Positions 1 to 32,498 are shown, numbered from the stretch's first letter. The stretch is DNA of 35,640 nucleotides from Synergistaceae bacterium (GCA_031269245.1 JAISZL010000095.1:1-35640), one strand, 5' to 3'. Program-made: numbers and translations. Notes: generated from the sequence alone by a model not told the origin.

Positions 1-225
1 GCCATGGTCAAGGCGGCCAACGTCAACCTGATCGGCAAGGTGCACGTCGGGGGCGGGCTGGTGACCGTCATGGTGCGCGGCGACGTGGGCGCCGTGAAGG
101 CCGCGACGGACGCCGGCGCAGCCGCCGCGGCGAAGGTGGGGGAGCTGGTGTCGGTGCACGTGATACCGCGCCCGCATGGCGAGGTGGAGTGCATACTCCC
201 CACGCTGGAGCAGAGCGTTAAATAA
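1..225 (+). CDS. BMC shell hexamer protein (PduA/EutM type), 5' end outside window
   Basis: This is a bacterial microcompartment shell protein with a single BMC domain. Six copies form a hexagonal tile with a central pore for small metabolites. The visible 74 residues cover most of the fold: the VKAANV helix, [22 protein letters not shown] and the end [14 protein letters not shown], all typical of the PduA/EutM/CsoS1 family. The family is usually about 90-100 residues and starts with a GMIETKG-like segment, which must lie left of base 1. The internal ATG at base 4 is therefore probably not the start. The stop codon abuts the next gene, so the two are co-transcribed. The family is clear; the exact paralogue is not. 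Confidence 0.93.
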
Positions 226-243
226 ATGACCGGCAAGGGCTCC

Positions 244-975
244 ATGAATATACTGAACGAAAGTATGTTGAGGGCCTCCTTGCTGGATGAAGATGCCCGG
301 CGGTTTTGCGTGGAGCGGGGTACATTTGTCACCCCCCTGGCCAGGGAGTACCTGAGGGATCGCGGCATCGAGCTCGTCTTCGGCGGAGCCGGTGAGGGTA
401 TGCCGTACACCCCCATTGAATACAAGGGGGAGAGGACATTTGTGGACGCGCGGAGCGGAGCTGGGTTTGAGGAAAAACCCGAGAGGATGACCCATCTTTT
501 CGGCAATCAGCTCGTGCCCAAGACGCATCCCCGCATAGCGCTCAGGGGCAAGCTCGACACGCTTCAAAGCGAAATAATCCTGACGCAGGCCGAAGCGATC
601 GAGTCTGGAATGCCTCAACTGGTGCGGGATCTCGACGATCTGCTGGCGCTGGCCAGGGAGATAATGGGGGCAGAGGTCGCCGGCAGGGATTTGAGGCCGC
701 GGTCCCTCTTTGGATATGACTTGGACGAATTGAGGCACATGTCTCATCACGTCAAAGAGCACTTCGGGTTTCCGCACCCAGTGCCAAACTACGCGATGGG
801 GCGCACGGCCGCCCGCCTGAACCTGCTGCGGGCTGAGTCCCGTGAGGTCGAGCTCGCGGCGGAACATGCGTTCGGGGACGGGGAGCGGGCGGATATCCTG
901 ACGGCATTGAACCGATTGAGCAGCGCGATCTACGTGCTGCTCTGCCGTCTGCTGGATGGAGGGTATGGGAGGTGA
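244..975 (+). CDS. eutT: EutT-type ATP:cob(I)alamin adenosyltransferase
   Basis: Transfers the adenosyl group of ATP to cob(I)alamin, making coenzyme B12 for the enzyme of the compartment. EutT-family features in order are an N-terminal module (residues 1-35, ending TPLAREYLRDRGIELVF), KPERMTHLFGNQLVPKTHPRI, FRG/LRGKLD, an all-helical core, and the C-terminal ILTALNRLSSAIYVL segment. I chose the ATG at 244 because MNILNESMLRAS lines up with the family N-terminus; an ATG at 226 adds six residues. The CCxxC iron-binding cysteines of the enteric EutT are absent before the MTHL segment, so it may not use ferrous iron. It overlaps the start of pduL (GTGA at 972-975). The family is seen in sequence; cofactor independence is inferred. 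Confidence 0.85.
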   Translation: MNILNESMLRASLLDEDARRFCVERGTFVTPLAREYLRDRGIELVFGGAGEGMPYTPIEYKGERTFVDARSGAGFEEKPERMTHLFGNQLVPKTHPRIALRGKLDTLQSEIILTQAEAIESGMPQLVRDLDDLLALAREIMGAEVAGRDLRPRSLFGYDLDELRHMSHHVKEHFGFPHPVPNYAMGRTAARLNLLRAESREVELAAEHAFGDGERADILTALNRLSSAIYVLLCRLLDGGYGR

Positions 976-1856
976 GATCGTTGGCCAGCCCCGATATTGA
1001 GGCCGTGGTGGCCCGCGTTTTGGATCGTTTGGGAAATATTGGAAGTGTTGGAAATATTGCCGTTCCGAGAGGGCATCGAATCAAGGTCGAGGCGTCGGCG
1101 AGGCATGTGCACCTCACCGAGGAGGCTGTTTGGCGTCTCTTCGGCGAGGGCGCGAGCCTGAGAAAAATCAGGGAGCTCTCCCAGCCGGGCGAATTTTTAG
1201 CCGAACAGAGGGTGAAGCTGGTAACTCCTCGCGGGGAGCTGAGGGATGTGGCGGTGCTCGGGCCGTTGCGGAAATCCGTCCAGGTGGAGCTGTCCCGCAC
1301 GGATTGCAGGGCGCTCGGTGTGAACCCCCCGGTCAACCTGTCGGGCAATATGTCCGGCGCGGGGGATGTGTGCATCGTCGGGGGCCACGGGATAGCCGAG
1401 GCCCGAGGCAGCGTCATTGTCGCCCGCGCGCACGCGCATCTGAGGCCGGAGGACGCCAGGATGTACGGCCTTTCCGACGGGGATCACGCGAGAGTGGAGA
1501 TAAAGAGCGGGCGCCCCGTGACATTGAACGATGTGATAGTGAGGGTGCGCGATGACTTTTCGCCGGCCGTCCATATTGACTTCGATGAGGCCAACGCGTG
1601 CATGTTGGACGAATCCAGCGTCGCCCGCATCTACGGCGCCGCCGCTTGCGCGCTTCCAGTCAGCGGCGCGGATGCCGTCCCTCGGCGCGAGGTCCCGGAG
1701 GCGGTTTGCGAAGAAGCGCTGATTACGGAGGCCCTAGCGATGAAAATCGCGTCCCTCGGCGCGAACCGGAATATCGCGGTAGCTTCGCGAACCATCATAA
1801 CCCCATCCGCGAAGGACGTTTTCTCCTCGGCGAGGATAACCGTGGAGAGGATATGA
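972..1856 (+). CDS. pduL: PduL phosphate acyltransferase with extra C-terminal module
   Basis: Converts acyl-CoA and phosphate to acyl-phosphate and CoA inside the compartment, recycling CoA. Residues 1-20 (SPDIEAVVARVLDRLG) look like an amphipathic encapsulation helix. The PduL core spans about residues 36-210: VEASARHVHLTEE, RELSQPGEFLAEQRV, VAVLGPLRKSVQVELS, VNLSGNMSG and ARAHAHLRPEDA. The HVH and AHAH motifs supply the expected zinc ligands. At 294 residues it is longer than the usual roughly 210-220. The extra tail (about 235-294) carries EALITEALAMKIASLG and RTIITPSAKDVF, resembling the N-terminal module of the adjacent EutT. The GTG start overlaps the eutT stop and has a GGGAGG-like site. 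The core assignment is firm; the role of the tail is unknown. Confidence 0.92.
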   Translation: MRSLASPDIEAVVARVLDRLGNIGSVGNIAVPRGHRIKVEASARHVHLTEEAVWRLFGEGASLRKIRELSQPGEFLAEQRVKLVTPRGELRDVAVLGPLRKSVQVELSRTDCRALGVNPPVNLSGNMSGAGDVCIVGGHGIAEARGSVIVARAHAHLRPEDARMYGLSDGDHARVEIKSGRPVTLNDVIVRVRDDFSPAVHIDFDEANACMLDESSVARIYGAAACALPVSGADAVPRREVPEAVCEEALITEALAMKIASLGANRNIAVASRTIITPSAKDVFSSARITVERI

Positions 1857-1875: not shown

Positions 1876-2166
1876 ATGATAATTTGCAAGGTGGTAGGGC
1901 ACGTGTGGTCCACGAAGAAAGAGGAAGGCCTGGTCGGAATGAAATTGATGGTCGTCGGTGAGCTGGACGATGCCGGATGCGTCACGGGGAACCCCTTTGT
2001 GGCGGCCGACGTAGTGGGTTCGGGTGTCGGGGAGACCGTGCTGGTGGTCGAGGGCAGCTCCGCCAGAATAGCGGCGGGCGGCAATGACGTCCCCGTGGAT
2101 TGCACGATAGTGGGGATCATAGACACCGTTGAGGTCGAGCGCGAAAAAAAGGGTAACCGCGGATGA
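1876..2166 (+). CDS. eutN: EutN/CcmL-type microcompartment vertex protein
   Basis: Forms pentamers that cap the vertices of the polyhedral shell. The 96-residue protein shows the BMV fold signatures: MIICKVVGHVWSTKKEEGLVGMKLMVV at the start, then DDAGCVTGNPFVAADVVGSGVGETVLVVEGSSAR and a final PVDCTIVGIIDTVEV. Length and order match the family. The ATG lies about 15 bases after an AGGAGG, farther than ideal. Its stop overlaps the start of pduS (ATGA), suggesting translational coupling. No unusual residues are seen. Confidence 0.95.
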   Translation: MIICKVVGHVWSTKKEEGLVGMKLMVVGELDDAGCVTGNPFVAADVVGSGVGETVLVVEGSSARIAAGGNDVPVDCTIVGIIDTVEVEREKKGNRG

Positions 2167-3527
2167 ACGATGTTTCCGAACTGATAAGGAGCGCGGGAGT
2201 CGTCGGATGCGGCGGGGCTGGGTTCCCAACATACGCCAAACTGCAGGGGCGCGTCGAGTATTTTATAGCGAACGGGGCGGAGTGCGAGCCGCTGCTTCAG
2301 ACCGACAGATACATAATGAGGCATTGCCCCGACGAGGTAGTGTCGGCGCTGGCCCGTGTCGGCGAAGCGGCTGGCGCCTCGCGCTGCGTCGTCGCGCTCA
2401 AGGAGACTTACGCGGAGGAGATAGAGGCCATCTCCTCCGGCATCGGGAGAACGGGCGCTCCCGTCACGGTCTGCGCGATGAGGAGCTTTTACCCCGCCGG
2501 GGATGAACAGGCGGTGGTCCGCGAGGTCACCGGCAGGGTCGTTCCTCCCGGCGGTATCCCCATTGACGTCGGCTGCGCTGTGTCAAACGCGGCCACATTG
2601 CTGGCCGCGTTTGACGCCATGAACGGCAGGCCCTTCACGCGTAAGTTTCTGACGGTGAGCGGGGAGGTGCGCAGCCCCGCCATAGTCAGCGCGCCCGTCG
2701 GCACACCGCTTTCGGACTGCCTTTCGCTGGCTGGGGGGGCTTCGGCGGACGACTATTGCGTCCTGCTGGGCGGGCCGATGATGGGCAGGATAATCTCGAA
2801 GGAGGAGACGGGCGCGGAGCGCGTGACCAAAACCACGTCAGGCGTGATCATTCTCCCCAGGGACAATCGCCTCTCCGCCGCGCAGAGCCTCAGCGACAGG
2901 CAAATCTCGGTCAGGGCGAGGGCGGCGTGCATACGATGCAGCCAGTGCACGGATCTCTGCCCCCGTTATTTGTTGGGGCACCCGCTGGAACCGCACAAGA
3001 TAATGAGGAGACTAGCCCTGTGCGGCGACCTGCGCGAACTGCCGCTCGACGAGCCCGTCGTCAGGTCGGCGGCGCTGTGCTGCGAATGCGGCATCTGCGA
3101 ACTGGTCGCCTGCCCCATGAATTTGCAGCCCCGGCGAGTCAACGCGGCGCTGCGGAGACGGTTGTCGTCCGAGGGGATTCGTTACCGGAGGGGAGAGGGG
3201 CAGCGCGAGGCGCATCCGCTGCGGGACATGCGGAAGATTCCCTCGGAGCGAGCGGCGGCTCGCGCCGGGGTGGCGCGATACAAGCATATCCATATCGACA
3301 GCTTGGCTGAGGCCCATCCGCACACCGTGTTCATATCCATGTCACAGCACATCGGAGCGCCGTGCGTCCCCGTGGTCGAGGATGGGGTGCGTGTGCGGGC
3401 GGGGGATCTGATAGCGTCTTCTCCAGTGGGAAATCTGGGGAGCAATATCCATGCCAGCATAGATGGCGTCGTCGCCATCCTGGAAAGTTCAATCGCGATT
3501 TCATCCGGAGGGAGTCATAAGGGATGA
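2163..3527 (+). CDS. pduS: PduS-like cobalamin reductase (flavin/Fe-S, RnfC-like)
   Basis: A flavin- and iron-sulfur-containing electron carrier that reduces cobalamin for the adenosyltransferase and may pass electrons across the shell. Seen in order: the RnfC/NuoF-like nucleotide-flavin region (VVGCGGAGFPTYAK at about 13-26, NGAECEP at 38-43), an SLBB-like stretch with SGEVRSPAIV, and two [4Fe-4S] motifs. The first is Cys256-x2-Cys259-x2-Cys262-x3-Cys266-Pro; the second is Cys306-x2-Cys309-x2-Cys312-x4-Cys317-Pro. A C-terminal barrel-sandwich-like domain follows (about 375-454). The length of 454 is normal for the family. It overlaps both neighbours by 4 bases. The next gene encodes its usual shell partner PduT. 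Confidence 0.93.
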   Translation: MNDVSELIRSAGVVGCGGAGFPTYAKLQGRVEYFIANGAECEPLLQTDRYIMRHCPDEVVSALARVGEAAGASRCVVALKETYAEEIEAISSGIGRTGAPVTVCAMRSFYPAGDEQAVVREVTGRVVPPGGIPIDVGCAVSNAATLLAAFDAMNGRPFTRKFLTVSGEVRSPAIVSAPVGTPLSDCLSLAGGASADDYCVLLGGPMMGRIISKEETGAERVTKTTSGVIILPRDNRLSAAQSLSDRQISVRARAACIRCSQCTDLCPRYLLGHPLEPHKIMRRLALCGDLRELPLDEPVVRSAALCCECGICELVACPMNLQPRRVNAALRRRLSSEGIRYRRGEGQREAHPLRDMRKIPSERAAARAGVARYKHIHIDSLAEAHPHTVFISMSQHIGAPCVPVVEDGVRVRAGDLIASSPVGNLGSNIHASIDGVVAILESSIAISSGGSHKG

Positions 3528-4072
3528 CGAGCTCTATTGGCTTTATCGAATTGTCAAGCATCGCCAAGGGAATAGAGGTGGCCGACACCGTGCTCAAAGC
3601 GGCGGAGGTGGCGCTTGTGCTGGCCCACCCCACCTGTCCCGGCAAGTACAGCGTTTTGTTCTCGGGGGACACGGCCGCCGTGGCTTCGTCGCTCGTTGCC
3701 GGAGAGTTGACGGGAGGCCCGCTCGTGGTGGACTCCGTCGTAATTCCAAACATCCACGCCGACGTGCTGCGCGCCATAGGCATGAGCGTCGCGCCCAAGG
3801 CCCTGAACGCGGTGGGCGTGATGGAATTTTTCAGCATTACGGCCGCGATACACGCGGCGGACGCCGCGGTCAAGGCGGCGGACGTGGAGCTGATCGACGT
3901 GCGACTCGGCACGGGCATAGGGGGCAAATCCTTCGTCGTATTGACCGGAGACGTGGCGGCGGTGACCGAGTCGGTCAATTGCGGCGCGCGCGCAGAAGGG
4001 GAAAAGGGTCTTCTGGTCGCCAGCGTGGTGATACCGAATCCGAGCCCGGAATTGTTCGAGGCGCTGCTTTAG
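3524..4072 (+). CDS. pduT: PduT-like tandem-BMC shell trimer with Fe-S site
   Basis: A shell protein with two BMC domains in tandem (about residues 4-85 and 97-178), forming pseudo-hexameric trimers. PduT trimers carry a [4Fe-4S] cluster on the three-fold axis, held by one cysteine per chain. Here Cys38 sits in HPTCPGKY, the same position and motif as in known PduT, so an electron conduit is likely. It is coded directly after PduS with an ATGA overlap, matching the proposed PduS-PduT electron route. It is the last recognisable shell gene; about 50 bases separate it from the AAA+ gene. Confidence 0.93.
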   Translation: MTSSIGFIELSSIAKGIEVADTVLKAAEVALVLAHPTCPGKYSVLFSGDTAAVASSLVAGELTGGPLVVDSVVIPNIHADVLRAIGMSVAPKALNAVGVMEFFSITAAIHAADAAVKAADVELIDVRLGTGIGGKSFVVLTGDVAAVTESVNCGARAEGEKGLLVASVVIPNPSPELFEALL

Positions 4073-4123: not shown

Positions 4124-5140
4124 TTGTCCGGCAAAAATATATTTTCGCGCCTTGACACCTCCAAGGTGCCCTCGCTGGTCGGCGGGGACGCGCGGAGGCG
4201 TTTCGCGCAGTGCAAGTCGCTGCTTGACAGCACGTCGTGGCCGCTTTATTTCATCGGTCCGTCAGGCTCCGGCAAGACGTTGATGGCGATGAACCTGGCG
4301 AAGAGCTACAGCGAGGAGAGGCGCGTCCCCAGCTATTACGTTCAACTGAGCCCCGAGATGACCAAGACCAACCTGATACTCGGGTTGAGGCTCGTCGACG
4401 GAAGCCTGAAGGTGACGGACGGGGTCGTAGCCGATTGTATGCGGCGAGGAGGGATCATTGTGGTGGACGAGGCGACGCACACCACGCACGAGCTCCTGCT
4501 GATGCTGAACAGCGTGCTCGACCGAACCTCGGTGACGTCGGTCGGAGACGAGATCGTCTACTCGGCAGACACGTTCCGCGTGATTTTTTGCGGCAACGAC
4601 AGCAGCTACGCGGGCAACGTCCGCCTGCCGCAGAGCTTTGCCCAGAGGCTGGCCGCGTTTTATTTCGAGTACCCCTCGTTCGAGTCCGAGCTGGAGATAA
4701 CGAAACGCATTGTCACTAACGAGTGCGGCTTGCCGATGACCGTGCCGGACTGCGTCACGAGGTACGTCGTGGCGACGGCCAGGATCGTTCGCTCCGGCCA
4801 ATACCCGCTCAGCGCGCGCAACGCCGCCATAATCGTGGTCATGCTCAACCTCATGGAACGCGCGCGCGGCGGCATGGACCCATATTTCACGAACGAGGAC
4901 ACGGCGGAGGCTAAAAGGCGCGCCGCGGCCTCCAGGATATTTCAGGTCGACGACGGGGCGCTGTCACTGCAATTGCTTTTGGACCGCGAGGTGACGGAGT
5001 TTCATCAGTTCGTGTCGGACGTCGGGGTCGAAAATTTCCGCCAGGCCTTTTTATCCGGCAGCATGTACTATCTGGACGTCGACGGCTTGGAGCTCAACCA
5101 AGAGACTGTGCGCAGCACGGTCGCGAATATGGTCATATGA
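4124..5140 (+). CDS. MoxR/CbbQ/NorQ-type AAA+ ATPase
   Basis: An ATPase of the MoxR clade, whose members work with VWA proteins to activate or load cofactors into partner enzymes (CbbQ-CbbO for Rubisco, NorQ-NorD for nitric oxide reductase). Seen: Walker A FIGPSGSGKTLMA (about 43-55), Walker B IIVVDEATH (111-119), sensor-1 asparagine in VIFCGNDSS (about 153-161) and the helical lid including YPLSARNAAIIVVML. The length of 338 is usual. The start is read as TTG at 4124 after an A+GGGGGGG run; no in-frame ATG fits better. It lies on the same strand as the BMC genes and just ahead of the VWA gene. The clade is clear; the target is inferred to be a compartment enzyme. Confidence 0.85.
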   Translation: MSGKNIFSRLDTSKVPSLVGGDARRRFAQCKSLLDSTSWPLYFIGPSGSGKTLMAMNLAKSYSEERRVPSYYVQLSPEMTKTNLILGLRLVDGSLKVTDGVVADCMRRGGIIVVDEATHTTHELLLMLNSVLDRTSVTSVGDEIVYSADTFRVIFCGNDSSYAGNVRLPQSFAQRLAAFYFEYPSFESELEITKRIVTNECGLPMTVPDCVTRYVVATARIVRSGQYPLSARNAAIIVVMLNLMERARGGMDPYFTNEDTAEAKRRAAASRIFQVDDGALSLQLLLDREVTEFHQFVSDVGVENFRQAFLSGSMYYLDVDGLELNQETVRSTVANMVI

Positions 5141-5159
5141 TCCGCTCTCTTGCGGCGGA

Positions 5160-6692
5160 TTGAAGTGGGAGGAAACCGCCATCTTTATCAATCCGCTTCT
5201 CCTGGTCCCGGACAAAAAGGTCAGAGTGAACGAGGATTTTGAATCCGACTCGGAAAATCCCACCTACATGGAGATCCATATGGATCGTTCATTCGACCCT
5301 GGTAAAATCACACGGGACAATTTCACGGAGCAGAACTTGATTTTCGAGCTTTGGCTCAACGTCAGGAGGATCGAGTATTTTTACAGGCGCTCCAGGATCG
5401 AAAAGCGCGCGGCCTTCGATGATTTCAAGTTCGCCTTCCTGGTGAAGGAGCTCGCCCTGATACGCTGCGGCACGGTCGAGTTCATGCGCCTGATCCCTCC
5501 AGGGCCTCCGTACTCCGGCAACCAGGTCTGGGAGTACATTTTCAGCCTGCTCGAGCTGAGAAGGTCCCGATACCGCCTCTCATGCGAGTTGCCGGCGTTT
5601 TCCAGGTATGCGGCCATCTACAGCGCGTGCGTGCGCAAGCACATATCCATGGAGATGATTTCCCGCCGAGTGGAGCGCTTCGAGCACGCGCTGGCGGAGT
5701 TCAGCCGGGCCAAGGACATGCTCGAAGAGCTGTACGCTCTGGCCGCCTTGAACCGCGTGCCGGAGGGGAGCGGCTTGTCCGAGTACGCCCTTCCTTTCCT
5801 GCTCGCCGCCGAACACGGGGACATATTCACCAGCTCCCAAGCCGCGACCGCCATTTACAACTACATCCTCATGCCAAACGAGTATCACGGGATGTTCAAA
5901 TTTCGTTTCAGTGACTTTGTGGAGGAGACCGAGGAGATTTTGGACGACAGCTCCTCGGAGGAGCTTCCTGAAATAAAGGAGGACGACGCCGTTGGCTTCT
6001 ACCGGGATGTCTTGATAAAACGGATGGAGAATATAGTGAGAATCCGCAATGTATTCAAGAGAATTTTCACTATGACGGAGCAGACGGAGGTCTTTGACGG
6101 TGACGTGGATTTGCGGAAGCAGCAGCGGTTGTACATTAGCTCGTTGACGGCGGAGGAGGACCGCGCGTTCCTCCAAAGGCGTTTCAAGTCAACGACGATG
6201 GACGTCGTGGTGGTGAGGGACATAAGTTTCTCCACGGACTTGTACAAGCTGGAATACGCCGAGGCGATAGTGGCAATTCTGGCGTCGCTCGACGCCATAG
6301 CGTCGGTGCGGACGGCTCAGATTGATTTCTCCGATTTCGCGGTGCTGAACAAGGGTTTCGATCAGAGGGCGCGCGACGCCGCCGTAGCCCCGCGCGCCTT
6401 TGGCGGCACGCTCATGGGGAGCGCGCTCGAATTGGTGGGAGGATTCTCCTTCAGGGCCGCACGGAGGCTAGTCTTCATAGTGACTGACGGCGAGATCGAG
6501 GACATGGCCGATTGCTCGGAGAGGATGAAGCACCTCTCGTCGCTTCAGGGCTTGCGTTTTTTCACGATCCACATCACTCCGGAAATTTACGGAGACAGGC
6601 TGGACGTCACTGGCACCCATGCGGTTTGTGGTTTCAACACGCTCGACAGGGCGTTGTATCACGTTCTTATGAGGGAGCTCAGGGGCAGATGA
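5160..6692 (+). CDS. VWA-domain protein, CbbO/NorD/CoxE-like partner of the AAA+ ATPase
   Basis: A 510-residue protein with a long helical N-terminal part (about 1-340) and a C-terminal von Willebrand A domain (about 345-500). The metal-ion-dependent adhesion site is complete: D-I-S-F-S near residue 354 (DxSxS), a Thr in GGTLMGSALEL, and Asp in IVTDGEIED near 441. This is the layout of CbbO, NorD and CoxE, which bridge a MoxR ATPase to its substrate enzyme. An acidic linker (SSSEELPEIKEDD) precedes the VWA part. The start is taken as TTG at 5160; a stronger ribosome-binding-like GGGAGG lies just inside, so the exact start is unsure. Its stop overlaps the next start (ATGA at 6689-6692). Confidence 0.8.
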   Translation: MKWEETAIFINPLLLVPDKKVRVNEDFESDSENPTYMEIHMDRSFDPGKITRDNFTEQNLIFELWLNVRRIEYFYRRSRIEKRAAFDDFKFAFLVKELALIRCGTVEFMRLIPPGPPYSGNQVWEYIFSLLELRRSRYRLSCELPAFSRYAAIYSACVRKHISMEMISRRVERFEHALAEFSRAKDMLEELYALAALNRVPEGSGLSEYALPFLLAAEHGDIFTSSQAATAIYNYILMPNEYHGMFKFRFSDFVEETEEILDDSSSEELPEIKEDDAVGFYRDVLIKRMENIVRIRNVFKRIFTMTEQTEVFDGDVDLRKQQRLYISSLTAEEDRAFLQRRFKSTTMDVVVVRDISFSTDLYKLEYAEAIVAILASLDAIASVRTAQIDFSDFAVLNKGFDQRARDAAVAPRAFGGTLMGSALELVGGFSFRAARRLVFIVTDGEIEDMADCSERMKHLSSLQGLRFFTIHITPEIYGDRLDVTGTHAVCGFNTLDRALYHVLMRELRGR

Positions 6693-7234
6693 ACTGTCCT
6701 CACGGGAAAAAAATCGTGCCGGTCTTCCAATACGGCGTCAGGCTGTTCACCCATGAAAATGGGGACATATGCGACTTGTGCGGCTCGTTGGACGCAAACT
6801 GCGAGGGGATCGCGCTGGCGAATATGAGGGGCGCGCTTGCCAGCGTGTCCTGGGGCGAGCATATGTCGAGGGTGGCGTATTCTTCCTACAAGGTGTCGGC
6901 GGATGCGCGTTTTTTCTGGATGGAAGGGCTGTGCTCCCTTGACGCGGCCGGGTTCACCCAGAAATTCACGCCTGTACGAATGGCGCTTATGAGCGAGGAT
7001 GAGGCGGCGCTTTCAGGATTGTACCTGATGGAGCTCTACTACGCCTTCCGCGGCATCTCCGGCAGAATAAACGCGGCGAATGAGGCCGTCGCGGAGTCTC
7101 CTCTTTATATTTTTCTGGGGTCATTGGGAGCGCCGCGAGTCATTCCTCATGAGAACGAGGTGACCAGAGCGTATGCTTTGACGATGAACGAACGGTTCGC
7201 CAGGTTCAAGAACGTGTTCCGCATCCCCGTTTGA
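6689..7234 (+). CDS. Unrecognised protein with CxH...CxxC N-terminus
   Basis: A 181-residue protein whose function I do not recognise. It begins MNCPHGKKIVPVFQYG, and a CDLC follows near residues 28-31, so Cys3, His5 and two later cysteines could bind zinc. The rest is mixed helical, with no signal peptide or membrane segment, and contains SGLYLMELYYAFRGISGRINAANEAV. The ATG overlaps the stop of the VWA gene, so the product is probably made with it and acts in the same complex. It is the last gene of the run and meets a minus-strand gene head-on at 7245. No other Cys-rich motif is seen. A structural or adaptor role is possible but unproven. Confidence 0.7.
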   Translation: MNCPHGKKIVPVFQYGVRLFTHENGDICDLCGSLDANCEGIALANMRGALASVSWGEHMSRVAYSSYKVSADARFFWMEGLCSLDAAGFTQKFTPVRMALMSEDEAALSGLYLMELYYAFRGISGRINAANEAVAESPLYIFLGSLGAPRVIPHENEVTRAYALTMNERFARFKNVFRIPV

Positions 7235-8073: not shown

Positions 8074-8988
8074 TTACTTCTTGCTGTAAGCGCTGTACTT
8101 ATCGAGCGTGTCGCCCACTCCGGCGAAATCCGGATGCGATGCGCCGCGATTCTTGTAGGTCCACGCGAAATTGCTGGTGACGGCTTCTTTGCGAATCTGA
8201 TCGACGATCTGCGGGTAGATATCCGCCTTTATCATCCAGGGAAGCCCCATCGGCGCTTCGCAGATAATCGTGCCGTCGGGGTTCAGTATCATGCTGCGGC
8301 CGAAATATGAGTACCCCTCGTCGATGCCAACGGAGTTCGCCGTGACGACATATACCTGATTGCAATACGCGCCCGCCTTGTTGGTGATCTCCCAAGCGCG
8401 GTCCCACGGGGCCATGTAGTGCGACACGCGGATTATCACGTTTGCCCCGTTGACGGCGGCTTCGCGCCAGATTTCAGGATAGTCCCCATCCGCGCAGATG
8501 ATGGTCGCCAACTTGGAGCCCTTGGGCCCGTCCACCACCTTGCACTCCCAGCCGGGATGGGATGCCTCGCCAGGGATCCAGGGGTTCATTTTGACGTACT
8601 TGTGGATCAGCTCGCCCCTGTCGTTGACAATTATGGCCGTATTGCAGCCCTTGCGGCCATCGACGTCGCGCACGAGCGGGTTGAATACGCCAAATATCCC
8701 GAGCTCCTTGCACTTGTCCTTCAGCCTCTGGATTTCGGGGCCGTTGAGGTCAACGAGAACGTCGTTCCATATTGGCCCGAATCCCTGCAAGCCGCACTCA
8801 GGGCTCACGAAAAGATCCAGCCCGGGGAAACCGAACGAAGCCTTGTCCATCCAATCTATGATCTGGTCGATATTTTTATTGACATCCTCCATCGTCTGCG
8901 CGCTGATCGGTGGAACCTGAACGCAAACAACGCTCATGGCCTCGACCTCGAATTTTCCGCTCATTGCATGAGTACTTCCGATATTCAT
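8074..8988 (-). CDS. Aliphatic amidase / formamidase (AmiE/AmiF family, nitrilase superfamily)
   Basis: Hydrolyses short amides to ammonia and the acid. The 304-residue protein has the full nitrilase-superfamily set: Glu in FVSPECG, Lys in KYVKMNPW, Cys in IICADGDYPEIWREA, and the extra Glu of PWIPGEASHPG that marks the AmiE/AmiF branch. SYFGRSMILNPDGTIICEA also matches that branch. It lacks most of the C-terminal tail of the 340-residue AmiE enzymes. The ATG at 8988 is chosen because GAGGAGG lies eight bases ahead; an in-frame ATG 11 codons earlier has no such site. The AmiS-type channel gene upstream supports amide use. Whether formamide, acetamide or propionamide is the substrate cannot be told. 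Confidence 0.9.
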   Translation of the reverse strand: MNIGSTHAMSGKFEVEAMSVVCVQVPPISAQTMEDVNKNIDQIIDWMDKASFGFPGLDLFVSPECGLQGFGPIWNDVLVDLNGPEIQRLKDKCKELGIFGVFNPLVRDVDGRKGCNTAIIVNDRGELIHKYVKMNPWIPGEASHPGWECKVVDGPKGSKLATIICADGDYPEIWREAAVNGANVIIRVSHYMAPWDRAWEITNKAGAYCNQVYVVTANSVGIDEGYSYFGRSMILNPDGTIICEAPMGLPWMIKADIYPQIVDQIRKEAVTSNFAWTYKNRGASHPDFAGVGDTLDKYSAYSKK

Positions 8989-9052
8989 CAGACAAACCTC
9001 CTCAATTTTGTTGAAATTCACATGTGCCGCTTACGACGTTGCGGGACTTGCT

Positions 9053-9099: not shown

Positions 9100-9633
9100 T
9101 CACCACCAACCGTTGAGCATGTAAAGCGATGGTATCCATAAGGTGAAGATGAAACCGATCACCATCGAGGCGACCGTGACTCTGCCAAACAACTTGCCGC
9201 TCCCTCTCCGCAGGGCCATGGAGTACCAGAAGAGCGCCCACAGCCAGCCCCACCAGATCCATATGAGGACCAGCGGTATATCGCCGGTCAAATACGTCTG
9301 ATAGGCCGGCAGGGGGATGTTGATGACCACGAACAGGCACCACCATCCCACGACGCGCCCGTCGAAGTCTTTAATCCTCTGAAGGCCGAGGAAAACGTAG
9401 GTCATCGCGAACAGCGTCACCTGGGCCGCCCACCACAGTGCCGGGGTCGGATAAACGGCGGACGTAGGACCGACCCACTCCTTCACCATACCAGCCAGTA
9501 TGACGAACAGCAGCATGAGACCAAATATCAGGTTGAACCAGCCATTCTCCCGCTGTTCACACTTTCCGCACGCAAAGGCGATGTTCACGACGAACATCGC
9601 GGCAACTATGAAGCAAACAAAACCTAATATCAC
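9100..9633 (-). CDS. amiS: AmiS/UreI-family amide or urea channel, copy 1
   Basis: A six-helix inner-membrane channel of the AmiS/UreI family, which passes small amides or urea. Family signatures: a WAAQVTLFAMTYVFLGLQRIKDFDGRVVGWWCLFVVIN-like block, IWIWWGWLWALFWYS, and GKLFGRVTVASMV before the last helix FTLWIPSLYMLNGWW. The cytoplasmic or periplasmic turn CGKCEQRENGW has a CxxC pair. I use the GTG at 9633 because a GAGGTG lies eight bases ahead; a GTG three codons earlier is possible. It sits directly upstream of the amidase gene. About nine in ten residues match copy 2 (roughly 17 differences by eye). It has its own promoter and a leader of about 310 bases. Confidence 0.88.
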   Translation of the reverse strand: MILGFVCFIVAAMFVVNIAFACGKCEQRENGWFNLIFGLMLLFVILAGMVKEWVGPTSAVYPTPALWWAAQVTLFAMTYVFLGLQRIKDFDGRVVGWWCLFVVINIPLPAYQTYLTGDIPLVLIWIWWGWLWALFWYSMALRRGSGKLFGRVTVASMVIGFIFTLWIPSLYMLNGWW

Positions 9634-9809
9634 GACCAACACCTCACGTTCAAGTATGTTAAATACGCGCTTTGGTTAAGTAAAACAGTAACACTTGATC
9701 ATGATAAGCAAGAGGTTTTCGAATATACCACGCCCCTTCCCGCATATTTTCCGCCCCAGGGCACGAAAACAGACCAACGGCGGCATGGTACGGACAACGC
9801 TCCAAACAA

Positions 9810-10028: not shown

Positions 10029-10562
10029 TCACCACCAACCGTTGAGCATGTAAAGCGATGGTATCCATAAGGTGAAGAAGAAAGCGATCACCATCGAGGC
10101 GACCGTGACTCTGCCAAACAACTTGCTGGTCCCCCTCTGCAAGGCCAAGGAGTACCAGAAGAGCGCCCACAGCCAGCCCCACCAGATCCATATGAGGACC
10201 AGCGGTATATCGCCGGTCAAATACGTCTGATAGGCCGGAAGGGGAATGTTGATGAGCACAAACAGGCACCACCATCCCACGGCGCGCCCGTCGAAATCTT
10301 TGATCCTCTGCAGCCCAAGGAAAACGTAGGTCATCGCGAACAGCGTCACCTGGGCCGCCCACCACAGGACTGGGGTCGGATAGGCGGCGGACGTCGGGCC
10401 GAGCCACTCCTTCACCATACCAGCCAATATGACGAACAGCAATATGAAGCCAAATATCAGATTGAACCAGCCATTCTCCCGCTGTTCACACTTTCCGCAC
10501 GCAAAGGCAATGTTCACGACGAATATAGCTGCGATGATGAAGCAAATAAAACCTAATATCAT
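10029..10562 (-). CDS. amiS: AmiS/UreI-family amide or urea channel, copy 2
   Basis: The second of two tandem six-helix channels, with the same family signatures as copy 1 (CGKCEQRENGW turn, IWIWWGWLWALFWYS, FTLWIPSLYMLNGWW). The ATG at 10562 is chosen because AGGAGG lies eight bases ahead; a GTG nine bases earlier overlaps that site and is less likely. Most differences from copy 1 are conservative (Val/Ile/Leu/Met), plus a few in the RRGSGKL turn (QRGTSKL here). The coding similarity ends a few bases past the stop (CGTCCTGTCACC shared). Its leader is only about 55 bases, unlike copy 1. It is first in the amide locus. Confidence 0.88.
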   Translation of the reverse strand: MILGFICFIIAAIFVVNIAFACGKCEQRENGWFNLIFGFILLFVILAGMVKEWLGPTSAAYPTPVLWWAAQVTLFAMTYVFLGLQRIKDFDGRAVGWWCLFVLINIPLPAYQTYLTGDIPLVLIWIWWGWLWALFWYSLALQRGTSKLFGRVTVASMVIAFFFTLWIPSLYMLNGWW

Positions 10563-10625
10563 GACCAACACCTCCTATTTAAGTATGTTCAACCAAAGGA
10601 AACCTGCGGGTTAGACCTATAATTT

Positions 10626-10667: not shown

Positions 10668-10800
10668 GAGATAGGACTGTGTTTTTACAGGATTTTTTAC
10701 CGCGGTTCTGTATTTTTTACAACTTCGTTACAATTTTTGACGCCGCGGTGACAACGCGCGCCGCCGTTTGAGCTATCATTGACCGCGGGAGGTGACAGAT

Positions 10801-13788
10801 ATGTCACGATCAATGAGATTTATAACGATATGCGCGATGATCGCGGCGGGGCTTCTGGCCGCGCCGCGCGCGCCGCGGCGAGCGCTCTGCGCCGAGGCGG
10901 AGACTGGCGGGACTATCCCGGAGACGCGCCTTGCGGTGAGCGGCGCCGAACGCCCGATAGAGCTGCGCGGACTCGACATAGCGTGCGACATCGCGGGCTC
11001 CACGGCGGCCACCACTGTGGAGATGGAGTTCTTCAATCCCAACGGCCGGGTCCTGGAGGGCGAACTGCGGTTCCCGCTGCTGGACGGGCAGACCGTCACG
11101 GGCTTCGCCCTGTCGACGGGCGAGGGCAGGAAGATGACGATGCGCGCCGCCGTGCCGGTTGACAAGGCCAAGGGGAGGGAGACCTTCGAGTCGGTCATAA
11201 GGAGGAGGGTGGACCCGGCGCTCCTCGAGGTCACGCAGGGCGGCAACTTCAAGCTGAGGGTGTACCCGCTGAACCCCGGCCAGAGCCGAGTGGTGCGAGT
11301 GACGTACAACGAGCGGCTCGCGGATGACGGCGGAGCGTCGGTGTACAGGCTGCCCCTCTCGTATGCTGACAGGGCCGCCAGGTTCAGCCTGACGGTGCGC
11401 GCCTATGGCGCGAAGGGGGCGCCCAGGGTTCTGAGCGGCGCGCCGTCTGGCATCGCGCTTGATTTCAGTGAAACCGGCGACGGAGGCGTGTTCACGGCCA
11501 GTGCGTCCACCGGGGATATAAGGCTGAGCCGGAGCGTGTTGGCGCTCTCCGTGCCGAGAGGGGGCGATGCCGTCCATCTTGGCCTCTGGGACGGCAGGGC
11601 GTACTTCCTGGCCGAGGTGTCGTCCGGCCCCGCCCCGGAGGAGGGAGTCTCCCGCGCTTGCCCGGGCAGGCTCTCGATCCTGTGGGACGCGTCGATGTCC
11701 GGTTCGAGGCGCGACCACGGGAGGGAGTTGGCGTTTCTGGACGAGTTCTTCAGCGGCGCGGCGGAGGAGCGGGAGATCGAGGTGTCGCTTCAGGTCGTGA
11801 GGGACGCGGCGGACGAGTCCAAAAAATTCACAATCCGGCGCGGCGACTGGGGGGAGCTCAGGGCGCGGCTCGAGTCCATGACGTATGACGGAGCTACGAA
11901 CCTCGGCGCGTTCGACACCGGGGATGGCGCCGACATGTATTTCCTCTTCTCCGACGGGCTTGACAACTACAGCGAAGCCCCGCTGGACGGCGCCGGCTCC
12001 CCGCTGTTCGCGTTCATCTCCGCTCCGGGCGCGCACGCGCCGAGGCTCGCCTCCTTGGCGGAGCGCTCCGGCGGCGCGCTGGTCGACCTCACGGCGCTGG
12101 ACGCGGCGGCCGCCCGGTCAGCGGTGACGAAAATCCAGCCGCGCATCGTCTCCTTTGGCGGGCGGGGCATATCGGACGTCCTCTGGAGCTCGCGCGGCGC
12201 GCGTCCGTCGGCGTTCTTCGTCGCCGGCAGGCTGGAGGGGGACGCGAGCGGGGTCCGGGACGTCCGGGCGGTCTTCGAGGATTCGCGCGGGCGCAGGGTG
12301 GAGCGGGACCTCACACTCATGTTCGCGCGGGCCGCGGAGGGAGAGCGCTTCAGCGGGGCGCCCTTCATATGGGCGTCGATGAAGGTGGAGTCGCTGGATG
12401 CCGAGTATGACCTGAACAGGGGCGAGATTCGCCGCATAGGCAGGGAGTTTCGCATAGCGACGCGCGAGACGTCGCTCATCGTGCTTGACGAGGCGGAGGA
12501 CTACATCCGCTACGACATAGAGCCTCCCGCCGAGCTCAAGGACGAGTACGACCGCGCGCGGGCGCGGATGGGCGAGTCGCGGCAGACGGGCGAGCGGAAC
12601 AAGATGGAGAGGGTTTTGGCCAAGTGGAACGCGCGCGAGGAGTGGTGGAAGCGAGACTTCCCGAAGGGAGGCCTACTGCCCCCAAAGGATCGTCCTAAGG
12701 CGCTGCCGCGGGACGGAGGCGGTGAACGCCGCGCGAATATTGCGGCGGCCCCCGAAACGATGGCGTCCGTCAACCAGAGCTACGCCGCCGCTCGGTCCGG
12801 CACGCCGCAGGCTATGGCCGCGGACGTCATGAGCGAGGCCGCGCCCGCGGGGAAGCCCGGCGGCGACTTCGGAAGCGCCGCTATAAACATCGCCCTGCGC
12901 CCATGGACTCCTGACGCGCCGTACATCAGGAGGCTCAAGGACGCGCGGGACGAGGACATGTACCGTGTATACCTGGACGAGCGCCCCGACTACGAGAACA
13001 GCGCCGCGTTCTTCCTCGACGTCTCCCGCCAGCTGGCCGAGCGGGGCCGGGAGGAGCTGTCCCTGCGCGTGCTCTCGAACCTGGCCGAGATGAACCTGGA
13101 GAGCCGCGTCATCCTGCGGATGCTCGGCTATCGGCTCATGGAGGCCGGCAGGGCCCGGCAGGCCGTCGTGATTTTTAAACGCGTCCTCGCGATCGGCGAG
13201 GAGGAGCCGCAGTCGTACAGGGACCTGGGCTTGGCACACGAGGCCGCCGGCGACCGTCAAATGGCGGTAGACAGGCTGTACGACGTGGTGGAGCGAAATT
13301 TCACGCGCTCCTTCCCCGGCATAGAAGTGATCGCTCTGACGGAGCTCAACGCGATCGTCGGCGCGGCGCCGGCCAAGCTGGACGTCAGCAGGGTGGACCA
13401 GCGCTTCCTCTCGAACCGCTCCCTGGATCTGCGAGTCGTGCTGACGTGGGACTCCGACAACACCGACATAGACCTGCACGTCATAGACCCGAACGGCGAG
13501 GAGACGTTCTACGGCTCGCCGATTAGCTGCCAGGGCGGCAGAATAACGCCGGACAACACGGCGGGCTACGGGCCGGAGGAGTTCTCGCTAAAGATCGCGA
13601 AACCCGGTAAATACCGCGTCGAGGTGAACTTCTACGGGCACACCCAGCAGATAATATCGGACGCCACGACGATACAGCTAGACTTTTACACGCGCTACGG
13701 GACGCCGGGCGTCCGAGGGCAGTCGGTCTCCATGAGGCTCAAGGAGGCCAAGGCTAGGATATTCGTCGGCGAGTTTGACGTGGAATGA
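10801..13788 (+). CDS. Exported VIT-VWA-TPR-DUF2135 protein
   Basis: A 995-residue exported protein. In order: a signal peptide (about 1-32, MRFITICAMIAAGLLAAP...); a VIT domain (about 35-170, with VEMEFFNPNGRVLEGELRFPLL and FKLRVYPLNPGQSRVVRVTY); a VWA domain (about 290-440) with an intact metal site (D-A-S-M-S, TNLGAFDTG, LFSDGLDN); a low-complexity linker; TPR-like helices (about 720-830, FLDVSRQLAERGREELSLRVLSNLAEM); and a C-terminal DUF2135 domain (about 875-965, VVLTWDSDNTDIDLHVIDPNGEE). The ATG at 10801 is favoured by GGGAGGTGA just ahead. Proteins of this layout resemble inter-alpha-trypsin inhibitor heavy chains and are thought to be adhesive or scaffold-like; the ligand is unknown. 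It probably acts in the periplasm or at the surface. Confidence 0.88.
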   Translation: MSRSMRFITICAMIAAGLLAAPRAPRRALCAEAETGGTIPETRLAVSGAERPIELRGLDIACDIAGSTAATTVEMEFFNPNGRVLEGELRFPLLDGQTVTGFALSTGEGRKMTMRAAVPVDKAKGRETFESVIRRRVDPALLEVTQGGNFKLRVYPLNPGQSRVVRVTYNERLADDGGASVYRLPLSYADRAARFSLTVRAYGAKGAPRVLSGAPSGIALDFSETGDGGVFTASASTGDIRLSRSVLALSVPRGGDAVHLGLWDGRAYFLAEVSSGPAPEEGVSRACPGRLSILWDASMSGSRRDHGRELAFLDEFFSGAAEEREIEVSLQVVRDAADESKKFTIRRGDWGELRARLESMTYDGATNLGAFDTGDGADMYFLFSDGLDNYSEAPLDGAGSPLFAFISAPGAHAPRLASLAERSGGALVDLTALDAAAARSAVTKIQPRIVSFGGRGISDVLWSSRGARPSAFFVAGRLEGDASGVRDVRAVFEDSRGRRVERDLTLMFARAAEGERFSGAPFIWASMKVESLDAEYDLNRGEIRRIGREFRIATRETSLIVLDEAEDYIRYDIEPPAELKDEYDRARARMGESRQTGERNKMERVLAKWNAREEWWKRDFPKGGLLPPKDRPKALPRDGGGERRANIAAAPETMASVNQSYAAARSGTPQAMAADVMSEAAPAGKPGGDFGSAAINIALRPWTPDAPYIRRLKDARDEDMYRVYLDERPDYENSAAFFLDVSRQLAERGREELSLRVLSNLAEMNLESRVILRMLGYRLMEAGRARQAVVIFKRVLAIGEEEPQSYRDLGLAHEAAGDRQMAVDRLYDVVERNFTRSFPGIEVIALTELNAIVGAAPAKLDVSRVDQRFLSNRSLDLRVVLTWDSDNTDIDLHVIDPNGEETFYGSPISCQGGRITPDNTAGYGPEEFSLKIAKPGKYRVEVNFYGHTQQIISDATTIQLDFYTRYGTPGVRGQSVSMRLKEAKARIFVGEFDVE

Positions 13789-30239: not shown

Positions 30240-30465
30240 TTAATGGGACGAGCCTATGACGTAATAAGACATCCCGGCGAGAGGAATTCGGTTGAAAGCC
30301 GAAGCGGCCGCGCCACTGTAATCGGGACGAAACCACTATTGCGGCGTGCCACTGCTCGTAATGACGAGCGGGAAGGCGTGGGAGTAGGAGGAACGAGAGC
30401 CAGGAGACCCGCGGGGATGGACGCGCGTAGCGTTGCCCTTGCGTACATAGCCGTCACGGGACGGT
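30240..30465 (+). ncRNA. Cobalamin (AdoCbl) riboswitch
   Basis: The conserved core of the B12 riboswitch is readable: GAGAGGAATTCGGTTGAAAGCCGAAGC-like P3-P4 region (30279-30304), the B12-box part CGCGCCACTGTAATCGGGA (GCCACTGT at 30312-30319), and the closing GAGAGCCAGGAGACCCGC (30396-30413). A hairpin after it (GTCACGGGACGGTGA, near 30453-30467) could be P13 for the kissing loop. The 5' edge is approximate. It precedes a terminator and a B12-receptor operon, so high coenzyme B12 should switch those genes off. Confidence 0.9.
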
Positions 30466-30482: not shown

Positions 30483-30517
30483 GAGGCCTTCACGCGTATG
30501 TGAAGGCCTCTTTTTTT
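30483..30517 (+). terminator. Intrinsic terminator of the riboswitch
   Basis: GAGGCCTTCAC (30483-30493) pairs with GTGAAGGCCTC (30500-30510) around a six-base loop, followed by seven T. It lies between the cobalamin riboswitch and the first gene, the expected place for transcriptional control by ligand. Confidence 0.93.
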
Positions 30518-30556
30518 GCGTACGCCACAAACGAAGAGGAGAAGGAGGATATTTTC

Positions 30557-32494
30557 ATGAAAACGTTCAAACGCATCGCGGTGTCACTGTTTCTTTTGCT
30601 GCTGCCGGCCGTTACGGCCAGCGCCGATATATTCTACGCGGCGTCGAACTACAGCAGCGGCCTTGCCGGGACGGTGGTCCGGCAGGGCTCCCTGTTCACG
30701 GTGTACGACAAGCCCTACGCGGGCCTTAACGGCGACGCGGCGGGCTTCACGTTCAGAGACCACAATGGCGAGAGCAGGGCGTTCACGCGCGAGCGCGTCG
30801 CGGGCAAAGACGACACGGTGCGCGTCTTCGACCCGGCGGACCTGAGCAAGCCCATAACGACATCCCCCTCCTGGAGGGCGGCCAACATACACGCGGCGGC
30901 GTCCATAGGGGATTACCTGTACGTCACGACCTACGAGAGCTACGCGGATTCGGCCGTGGAGAACACCGGCAAGGTGGTCCGCATCGACATGGCGGACGGC
31001 TACAAAGCGGACAAGGGGTATCACTATGAAAGGCAGGGGAGCGTCAACCCGCACGGCGAGGCACTGCACATCGAGGGAGACGAGAGCGGTTACAAGGTCT
31101 ACGCGCTCTTCGGCCTCTCCACGTCCCTGGCTCTGAAATACGAGCCCACCGAGATAGTGGAGTTCGACGAGGAGCTGAATGTGCTGCGCAAGGCGAAGCT
31201 GGAGTCCGGCGCGAAGAAGGGCCTCAACGCGATGCGCATGGCGTATCGCGGCGGCAAGCTCTACGTGGCGTGCATGGGAGGCTACCAGGGACCGGACTCG
31301 TGGGGCGACGTGTGGGAGGTCGACCTAAAGACCATGACGCCCCGCCAGGTCCTGGACGGCAAGAGCCTGACGTACAAGGTAAACGGGCAGGACGTCGCGA
31401 TAGGGATGTACGGCGTGCAGTTCGCGCCGGACGGGACGGCGTACCTGCTTACCGGGAGCTACAGCGCGGACTATAATTTCCGGGGCAGGCTCTATGTGAC
31501 GACGGCGGCCGCCCTGGCAAAAGGCAATGCCGGCGTTCTGAGGGCGGAGTACAGCGCGAAGGAAGGATACTCCGGCTTCTCGTGGGACATCCTCTATGAC
31601 AGGGGCTCCGGCGTGCTTTGGTGCATGGTGGGAAAATCACTGGAGGCCCGCAACCCGGACGGCTCGCTGATCAAGAAGCTCACCCCCGGCGCGCTCGGCG
31701 ACAACATATACTCAATAGCGGAGATCCTGACGGACACGGACGAGGAGGAGACACCGGAGAGGCCTTCTTTGGTCCAGGTAACGGTTCCCCAGGAGAAACC
31801 CGAATGGGTGGAGGCGGTTCAGGAGGGGAAAATGGATTTCGCGGAACTGGAAGATCTCAAGAAAATTAATAACGGCGCTTTAGAATCAATCATAGACGAG
31901 GACGAAGAAAAAGGCGTGACAGTCGTCAGCGTAGGAGCGGCCTTCTCTCTGGCGAAAGAACTTTATGGGGACGAGAGCGATCCGCAGGTGAGGCCGCAGC
32001 CCGCGTTCAAGGCGGAAGTTGGATCGGGCAGGGTGGCGGCGGTCGGCCTGAGGGTGAAGGGCCCCGACTTCCTCGCGAACAACGCGAAGTCCGTCAAGGT
32101 AATGAAGGTCAAGGGCGCGGGCGACACCGACACTAGAAAGTTCACCTACGTCTTGGAGGCGAGCGAGTACGATGACGGCACATTCACGATCCTGAAAGAG
32201 GACGGTACGCCCGCCGGTGATCTTTCCGGCGACGGGACATACATCCTCACGCTCTTCGTCAAGGACGGCGGAGAATACGACTTAGACGGATCAGAGAACG
32301 GCTCAGTAATTGATCCGAGCGTGATCGTCGGAGTCACGGGCAGCTCCGCTGAGGTCCCGGAGAGTCCCTCCACAGAGTCCGGCGGCGATGCCGGCGGAGG
32401 CGGCTGCTCGTCCGGCATCCCCGTAACGGTTCTTTTGGCCGGCTTGTTCGGATTGGCCTCGGCCTGGACGATCCGGCGCCCGCGCCGCCGCTAA
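30557..32494 (+). CDS. B12-regulated secreted protein with Synergist-CTERM anchor
   Basis: A 645-residue exported protein. It has a signal peptide (about 1-23, MKTFKRIAVSLFLLLLPAVTASA), then a large repeat-rich domain (about 24-410) that looks like a beta propeller (DYLYVTTYESY, GGKLYVACMGGYQ, FAPDGTAYLLTGSY, GVLWCMVGKS). A linker and a second, beta-rich domain (about 490-600) follow. The tail (about 615-645) is GGDAGGGGCSSG, a hydrophobic helix and RRPRRR, the Synergist-CTERM sorting form; the Cys may be lipidated or cleaved near. AAGGAGG lies eight bases ahead of the ATG. It is controlled by the cobalamin riboswitch and sits four bases before the receptor gene, so it may capture or pass on cobalamin. 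That role is inferred. Confidence 0.82.
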   Translation: MKTFKRIAVSLFLLLLPAVTASADIFYAASNYSSGLAGTVVRQGSLFTVYDKPYAGLNGDAAGFTFRDHNGESRAFTRERVAGKDDTVRVFDPADLSKPITTSPSWRAANIHAAASIGDYLYVTTYESYADSAVENTGKVVRIDMADGYKADKGYHYERQGSVNPHGEALHIEGDESGYKVYALFGLSTSLALKYEPTEIVEFDEELNVLRKAKLESGAKKGLNAMRMAYRGGKLYVACMGGYQGPDSWGDVWEVDLKTMTPRQVLDGKSLTYKVNGQDVAIGMYGVQFAPDGTAYLLTGSYSADYNFRGRLYVTTAAALAKGNAGVLRAEYSAKEGYSGFSWDILYDRGSGVLWCMVGKSLEARNPDGSLIKKLTPGALGDNIYSIAEILTDTDEEETPERPSLVQVTVPQEKPEWVEAVQEGKMDFAELEDLKKINNGALESIIDEDEEKGVTVVSVGAAFSLAKELYGDESDPQVRPQPAFKAEVGSGRVAAVGLRVKGPDFLANNAKSVKVMKVKGAGDTDTRKFTYVLEASEYDDGTFTILKEDGTPAGDLSGDGTYILTLFVKDGGEYDLDGSENGSVIDPSVIVGVTGSSAEVPESPSTESGGDAGGGGCSSGIPVTVLLAGLFGLASAWTIRRPRRR

Positions 32495-32498
32495 TCCA

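Follow-up and report, generated by a model that had tools for sequence, protein, structure and literature searches.

Gene content of the locus

The window analyzed in this study is a stretch of 35,640 nucleotides from a Synergistaceae bacterium (genome G000, contig C86). It begins within an operon for a bacterial microcompartment (BMC), which is followed on the same strand by three genes, hereafter referred to as the trio, encoding a MoxR-type AAA+ ATPase, a VWA protein, and a protein of 181 residues designated ORF3 (Table 1).

Table 1. Microcompartment and trio genes at the start of the window.
Feature	Coordinates	Strand	Assignment
eutM-type BMC-H shell gene	1-224	+	PF00936 on both contigs; 5' part on contig C42
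eutT-type cobalamin adenosyltransferase	226-975	+	PF01923, 3.7e-15; NCBIfam EutT, 8e-31, under cut-off
PduL/EutD-type phosphate acyltransferase	972-1856	+	PF06130, 1e-62; NCBIfam NF011652, over cut-off
eutN-type BMC-P vertex protein	1876-2166	+	PF03319, 1e-30
RnfC/PduS-type flavin and Fe-S electron-transfer protein	2163-3527	+	Complex1_51K, SLBB, Fer4, RnfC_N
pduT-type trimeric shell protein	3524-4072	+	Two BMC domains; TIGR02526, 2e-41, under cut-off
MoxR-type AAA+ ATPase gene	4124-5140	+	PF07728; TTG start at 4124
VWA protein gene	5160-6692	+	PF05762, weak; alignment; true start uncertain
ORF3, 181 residues	6689-7234	+	No family match; putative metal site (C3, H5, H22, C28), then predicted all-helical region

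The upstream part of the operon was located on a second contig, C42, the last 87 bases of which (L006, 14466-14552) are identical to positions 1 to 87 of the window, inside eutM. We infer the join between the two contigs from this overlap and from the operon of another genome of the same genus, G003 (L050), in which the genes are present in the same order, unbroken, on one contig. Since G003 harbors two tandem copies of eutM, a collapsed repeat is likely and may explain the assembly break inside this gene. Contig C42 encodes an ANTAR response regulator and a histidine kinase (eutVW-type), followed by eutA, eutB, eutC, eutL, and an aldehyde dehydrogenase gene. EutBC, EutA, shell proteins, an aldehyde dehydrogenase, and a phosphate acyltransferase (PTAC) are all present, and the compartment is thus an ethanolamine (Eut) BMC. 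The pduT-type protein contains Cys38 within the sequence PTCPGK, which we take to be the position of the PduT Fe-S cluster.

As predicted from the sequence of the window, the three open reading frames follow pduT in a row and on the same strand; their coordinates were confirmed, as was the ATGA overlap of the VWA gene and ORF3 (positions 6689 to 6692). The gap between pduT and the AAA+ gene is 51 bp long, and neither a promoter-like nor a terminator-like site was called within it. The AAA+ and VWA genes are separated by 19 bp. The trio is probably co-transcribed with the Eut operon. Its GC3 content (0.73 to 0.83) is similar to the values for rnfC and pduT (0.77 to 0.79), indicating that the trio is not obviously recent foreign DNA. 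The start of the VWA gene is less clear: the TTG codon at 5160 is not preceded by a good ribosome-binding site, and the homologues begin about 6 to 8 codons later. There is no ATG codon near the homologous start, and a well-spaced GGGAGG precedes an ATC codon at 5181. Initiation at this rare ATC codon is possible.

Further downstream, a formamidase/aliphatic-amidase-like gene (8074-9021) adjoins two tandem AmiS/UreI-type channel genes (9100-9642 and 10029-10571, minus strand), the products of which are identical at 163 of 180 residues. An amidase gene and a channel gene are found in G003 directly 3' of pduT, in opposite orientation. The window also encodes a 998-residue protein with VIT and DUF2135 domains (10792-13788, plus strand), which is no kin of the trio VWA protein. 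A cobalamin riboswitch (30283-30408; Rfam RF00174, 75 bits) is followed, at 30500-34541, by an open reading frame of 664 codons without Pfam match and by a gene for a TonB-dependent receptor, which together probably form a B12 uptake operon of the same genome.

The AAA+ and VWA proteins

The AAA+ protein matched PF07728 in Pfam (E = 9e-19) and, under the cut-off, the GvpN model of NCBIfam (2e-11). Its relatives in the PDB were Midasin (3e-19), NorQ (4e-7), and CbbQ (9e-7); the relationship to CbbQ and NorQ chains was remote (E about 1e-5 to 1e-7), and Midasin scored better. In the comparison with the CbbQ/NorQ (CGN) subfamily, E values ranged from 4e-7 to 9e-6. Walker A was identified at residues 45 to 52 (GPSGSGKT) and Walker B runs to D115-E116, whereas N158, R175, and R232 are candidates, by position, for sensor 1, the Arg finger, and sensor 2, respectively. 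The catalytic motifs were invariant in an alignment of four homologues. The protein is therefore an AAA+ ATPase of the AAA_5 clade displaying the Walker motifs and, by position, the sensor 1 and Arg finger residues that characterize the motor of a MoxR/VWA pair.

The AAA+ protein also matched a phage family of CobS-like proteins, phrog_249 of PHROGs (3e-25; 28% with cyanophage CobS). CobS and CobT are an AAA+/VWA pair, and a CobN-like protein is encoded by G000, raising the possibility that the trio provides a motor for a CobN-type metal chelatase involved in cofactor synthesis for the cobalamin enzyme. However, the trio does not include a chelatase large subunit, and no NCBIfam CobS model reached an E value of 0.1. 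In addition, no CobN-like match was detected in the three other genomes found to harbor the trio (G007, 80% complete; G021; and G172, 87% complete), whereas G003, which lacks the trio, encodes one. The chelatase motor was rejected, since the distribution of CobN does not track that of the trio, and we consider it very improbable.

The match of the VWA protein to PF05762 (CoxE-type) was weak and under the cut-off (1.7e-4). The protein comprises a helical N-terminal region and a C-terminal VWA domain, in which the MIDAS motif is complete (D354-x-S356-x-S358, T417, and D443) and invariant in four homologues, bearing out the prediction of a full metal site. In the low-confidence predicted model (pLDDT of 44) the VWA core alone was recognizable, with Foldseek matches to VWA/I domains at 2e-4, and a profile search of the PDB with the VWA alignment returned nothing. 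The VWA gene adjoins the AAA+ gene in all four genomes harboring the trio.

The third protein, ORF3

ORF3 had been described as unrecognized, and this description held: the protein had no match in Pfam, NCBIfam, PADLOC, PHROGs, or the sequences of the PDB, nor did a profile search of the PDB with the ORF3 alignment return any hit. The three other sequences of this alignment are 22 to 52% identical to the window copy, and residues C3-P4-H5-G6, G16, H22, G25, and C28 of the N-terminal region are invariant in the four proteins. The original prediction proposed a CxH-CxxC motif. C3 and H5 are indeed invariant. The window copy does contain the sequence C28-x-x-C31, yet C31 varies among the four homologues. 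The conserved candidate ligands of a metal are thus C3, H5, H22, and C28 rather than a CxxC motif, and ORF3 probably carries a C/H/H/C zinc site, as judged from the alignment. This site is likely to be located on a β hairpin followed by helices, although the predicted model is poor (four-row alignment; pLDDT of 52; best Foldseek E value of 1.2, nothing usable).

Conservation of the trio in a second species

The gene order of the window, eutM-eutT-eutD-eutN-rnfC-pduT-AAA-VWA-ORF3, recurs in G007 (L012, JAISDQ010000122.1), which represents another species of the genus. The trio is thus attached to a B12-dependent compartment operon, as originally proposed, directly after pduT in two diverged species of gut-type bacteria. 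Between the window and G007, protein identity is 72% for AAA, 59% for VWA, and 52% for ORF3, compared to 57 to 75% for the products of the eut genes. With synonymous sites at saturation (pS of about 0.7), the dN/dS ratios are 0.10 (AAA), 0.15 (VWA), and 0.28 (ORF3), compared to 0.08 to 0.20 for the neighboring eut genes for which the ratio was computable. ORF3 is the fastest evolving member of the trio. These results indicate that the trio consists of functional genes that are under purifying selection and have long been kept together. Between genera, identity decreases from 51% for AAA to about 30% for VWA and about 23% for ORF3, a gradient that would be expected if a fixed motor were combined with diverging client-facing parts.

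MoxR-vWA ternary conflict systems, which act in defense, likewise combine MoxR and vWA with a third protein (PMC7159879), and the rapid evolution of the third gene would fit such a system. In contrast, ORF3 has neither a Pfam nor a PADLOC match, Pfam revealed neither an effector nor a peptidase domain on the VWA protein or ORF3, the dN/dS ratios are low, and the trio was not found in viral contigs. Since Pfam and PADLOC revealed no VMAP, iSTAND, FtsH, or effector match, assignment of the trio to these systems was rejected, and we consider a role in defense very improbable.

Distribution of the trio in Synergistota

The trio VWA gene was detected in 4 of 183 genomes of the order, and a four-row VWA profile retrieved the same 4 among 188 genomes of the phylum. 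A profile of the AAA+ protein, tried on six genomes, also identified these four, each with a single copy. The four genomes, G000, G007, G021, and G172, belong to two genera; in all of them the three genes are adjacent and in the same order, with gaps of 16 to 28 bp or short overlaps. Broad searches covered Synergistota genomes, plasmids, phages, and viral contigs, the wider contig search relying on a one-sequence query that is insensitive and detects close relatives only. No relative of the trio was found in plasmids. None was found in viral contigs, the phage kin being limited to the remote CobS-like AAA+ proteins, and a phage origin was rejected on this basis.

The location of the trio differs between the two genera. 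In G000 and G007 it is linked to the eut operon, whereas in G021 and G172 it is free-standing, away from BMC genes, and has on its 3' side a NUDIX gene resembling isopentenyl-diphosphate isomerase, then a LysR gene and genes for a V-type ATPase. Thus, the proposal that the trio belongs with BMC loci holds for two of the four genomes and fails for the other two, and the trio does not occur only next to BMC or Eut genes, the BMC of G021 and G172 being encoded elsewhere in these genomes. This BMC is of a DeoC-type-aldolase type. Loci of this second type (L074 7691-15576, L075, L076, and L077) were observed in G172, G171, G007, and G021; they encode DeoC-type aldolases (one with a C-terminal cysteine motif), triosephosphate isomerase, two zinc alcohol dehydrogenases, RnfC, and PduT, and resemble sugar-phosphate (SPU) BMCs.

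The distribution of EutB did not support the originally suggested link to the cobalamin enzyme in particular. No EutB was detected in G021 (96% complete) or G172 (87% complete), and the trio is missing from 37 of the 39 genomes that encode EutB among the 183 of the order. Since a number of these assemblies are incomplete drafts, single absences are weak evidence, but the pattern of 37 genomes is not. Co-occurrence of the trio and EutB was not above chance (hypergeometric P = 0.20). G003 harbors the same eut operon as the window without the trio, an amidase gene being located about 450 bp 3' of pduT. In a tree based on EutB and EutC, G003 groups with the trio-bearing G007 (support of 0.87), suggesting that the trio was lost in G003 without loss of the compartment. 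All four trio genomes possess a BMC with rnfC and pduT, compared to 70 of 183 genomes of the order possessing a BMC, but a set of four genomes in two genera is too small for this association to be called significant.

The trio had been proposed to replace the usual reactivase of the cobalamin enzyme. Replacement is refuted by the presence of eutA in the same operon, as in nearly all Eut loci compared. In a broader version of this proposal, the trio is an ethanolamine ammonia-lyase reactivase that may also double EutA. The position of the trio in the eut operon and the ability of CbbQO to reactivate inhibited Rubisco (PMC4660213) would be consistent with this activity. It is nonetheless improbable, since EutA is already encoded in the operon, two trio genomes lack EutB, and nearly all Eut operons do without the trio.

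The distribution has a direct bearing on a further explanation, according to which the trio works as a self-standing MoxR/VWA module, with a client outside the compartment, and came to lie after pduT through one past insertion that has since been inherited within a single genus. The free copies of G021 and G172, located beside non-BMC genes in genomes without EutB, point to this explanation, as does the G003 operon. The BMC-linked copies are only two and both belong to one genus, which possibly reflects one insertion event. Conversely, the BMC-linked order has survived saturating synonymous divergence, whereas genes located nearby downstream (TM1506, amidase, and amiS) are rearranged between G000 and G003, and the BMC with rnfC and pduT is common to the four trio genomes, few as they are. 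We regard a self-standing module as a serious contender with appreciably less than an even chance of being correct.

Discussion

The explanation that we tentatively prefer, although we hold it at slightly less than even confidence, is that the trio is a portable MoxR/VWA remodeling module with a new third subunit, which in one genus occupies the 3'-terminal position in the Eut operon and most likely acts there on a compartment component alongside EutA. The three genes probably encode an ATP-driven machine for remodeling of a client. For NorD and CbbO, the MIDAS is thought to bind the client (PMC9976466, PMC4660213). In NorQD and CbbQO, the VWA domain sits in the AAA+ ring as a plug, with its MIDAS presumably gripping an acidic patch on the client, and the client is then reshaped by ATP hydrolysis (PMC9976466, PMC13036017, PMC4660213). 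All motifs required by a mechanism of this type are present in the trio. By analogy, a hexameric ring of the AAA+ protein would be the motor, the VWA protein would act as an adaptor plugging the ring and gripping an acidic patch of the client via the MIDAS metal, and ATP hydrolysis would lead to reshaping of the client. ORF3, with its probable C/H/H/C zinc site, may help to choose or hold the client.

A dedicated link between the trio and the Eut compartment is possible but unproven. If the client is a part of the compartment, the RnfC/PduS protein, PduT, the aldehyde dehydrogenase, or the shell, which are common to the four trio genomes, would fit better than ethanolamine ammonia-lyase, since the latter is absent from two of them. 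The trio proteins of the window and G007 have no N-terminal extensions in comparison to the BMC-unlinked copies, and there is thus no sign of an encapsulation peptide. In a more far-reaching explanation, which we consider rather unlikely, the MoxR/VWA/ORF3 machine would remodel or mature a component of a heterotrophic BMC, for example by loading the Fe-S/flavin pair RnfC-PduT or by reshaping the shell. It would then be the first such ATPase for a BMC other than the carboxysome, with an undescribed zinc-site subunit. Should the trio serve the Eut compartment, metabolosomes would also be able to recruit a motor, and loading of metal cofactors in BMCs would become testable. Regardless of the Eut link, our analysis defines a three-part MoxR/VWA module, and no relative of its third protein turned up in any library searched.

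The closest parallel in a BMC is CsoCbbQ-CsoCbbO of α-carboxysomes, in which a MoxR AAA+ protein and a VWA protein are encoded with the BMC; this ATPase is associated with the shell and was reported as the first to be linked to a BMC (PMC4633670). The original claim that no BMC case had been described therefore holds for the trio, but not for MoxR-VWA pairs in general. CsoCbbQ-CsoCbbO differs from the trio in that it is autotrophic, related to Rubisco, and devoid of a third protein, and the trio AAA+ protein is only remotely related to it. In the literature found, an ATP-driven motor is described for this one kind of BMC only. Our search combining MoxR, microcompartment, and ethanolamine retrieved no report for a metabolosome, and the terms MoxR and AAA are absent from the main texts of two BMC catalogues. 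EUT2-type ethanolamine loci resemble the operon of the window by the presence of EutA, EutBC, a PduL-type PTAC, and a two-component regulator (PMC4207490), but lack the added MoxR/VWA/ORF3 genes.

Outside BMCs, NorQ-NorD shares with the trio a MoxR AAA+ protein and a VWA partner whose MIDAS is of the DxSxS-T-D form and whose N-terminal region is separate (PMC9976466, PMC13036017), but its client is nitric oxide reductase and it has no small third subunit of the CPHG type. The CbbQ-CbbO Rubisco activases are two-part machines in which the MIDAS is needed for the client and the N-terminal part of the VWA protein is poorly conserved (PMC4660213); they act on Rubisco, and their VWA protein is larger (about 770 residues versus 510 in the trio). 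The ternary conflict systems discussed above contain as third component VMAP, iSTAND, or FtsH, or a β-propeller fused to vWA, along with variable effectors, none of which was detected in the trio. The trio is most appropriately classed as a MoxR/VWA module containing a new third part rather than as a proven BMC component.
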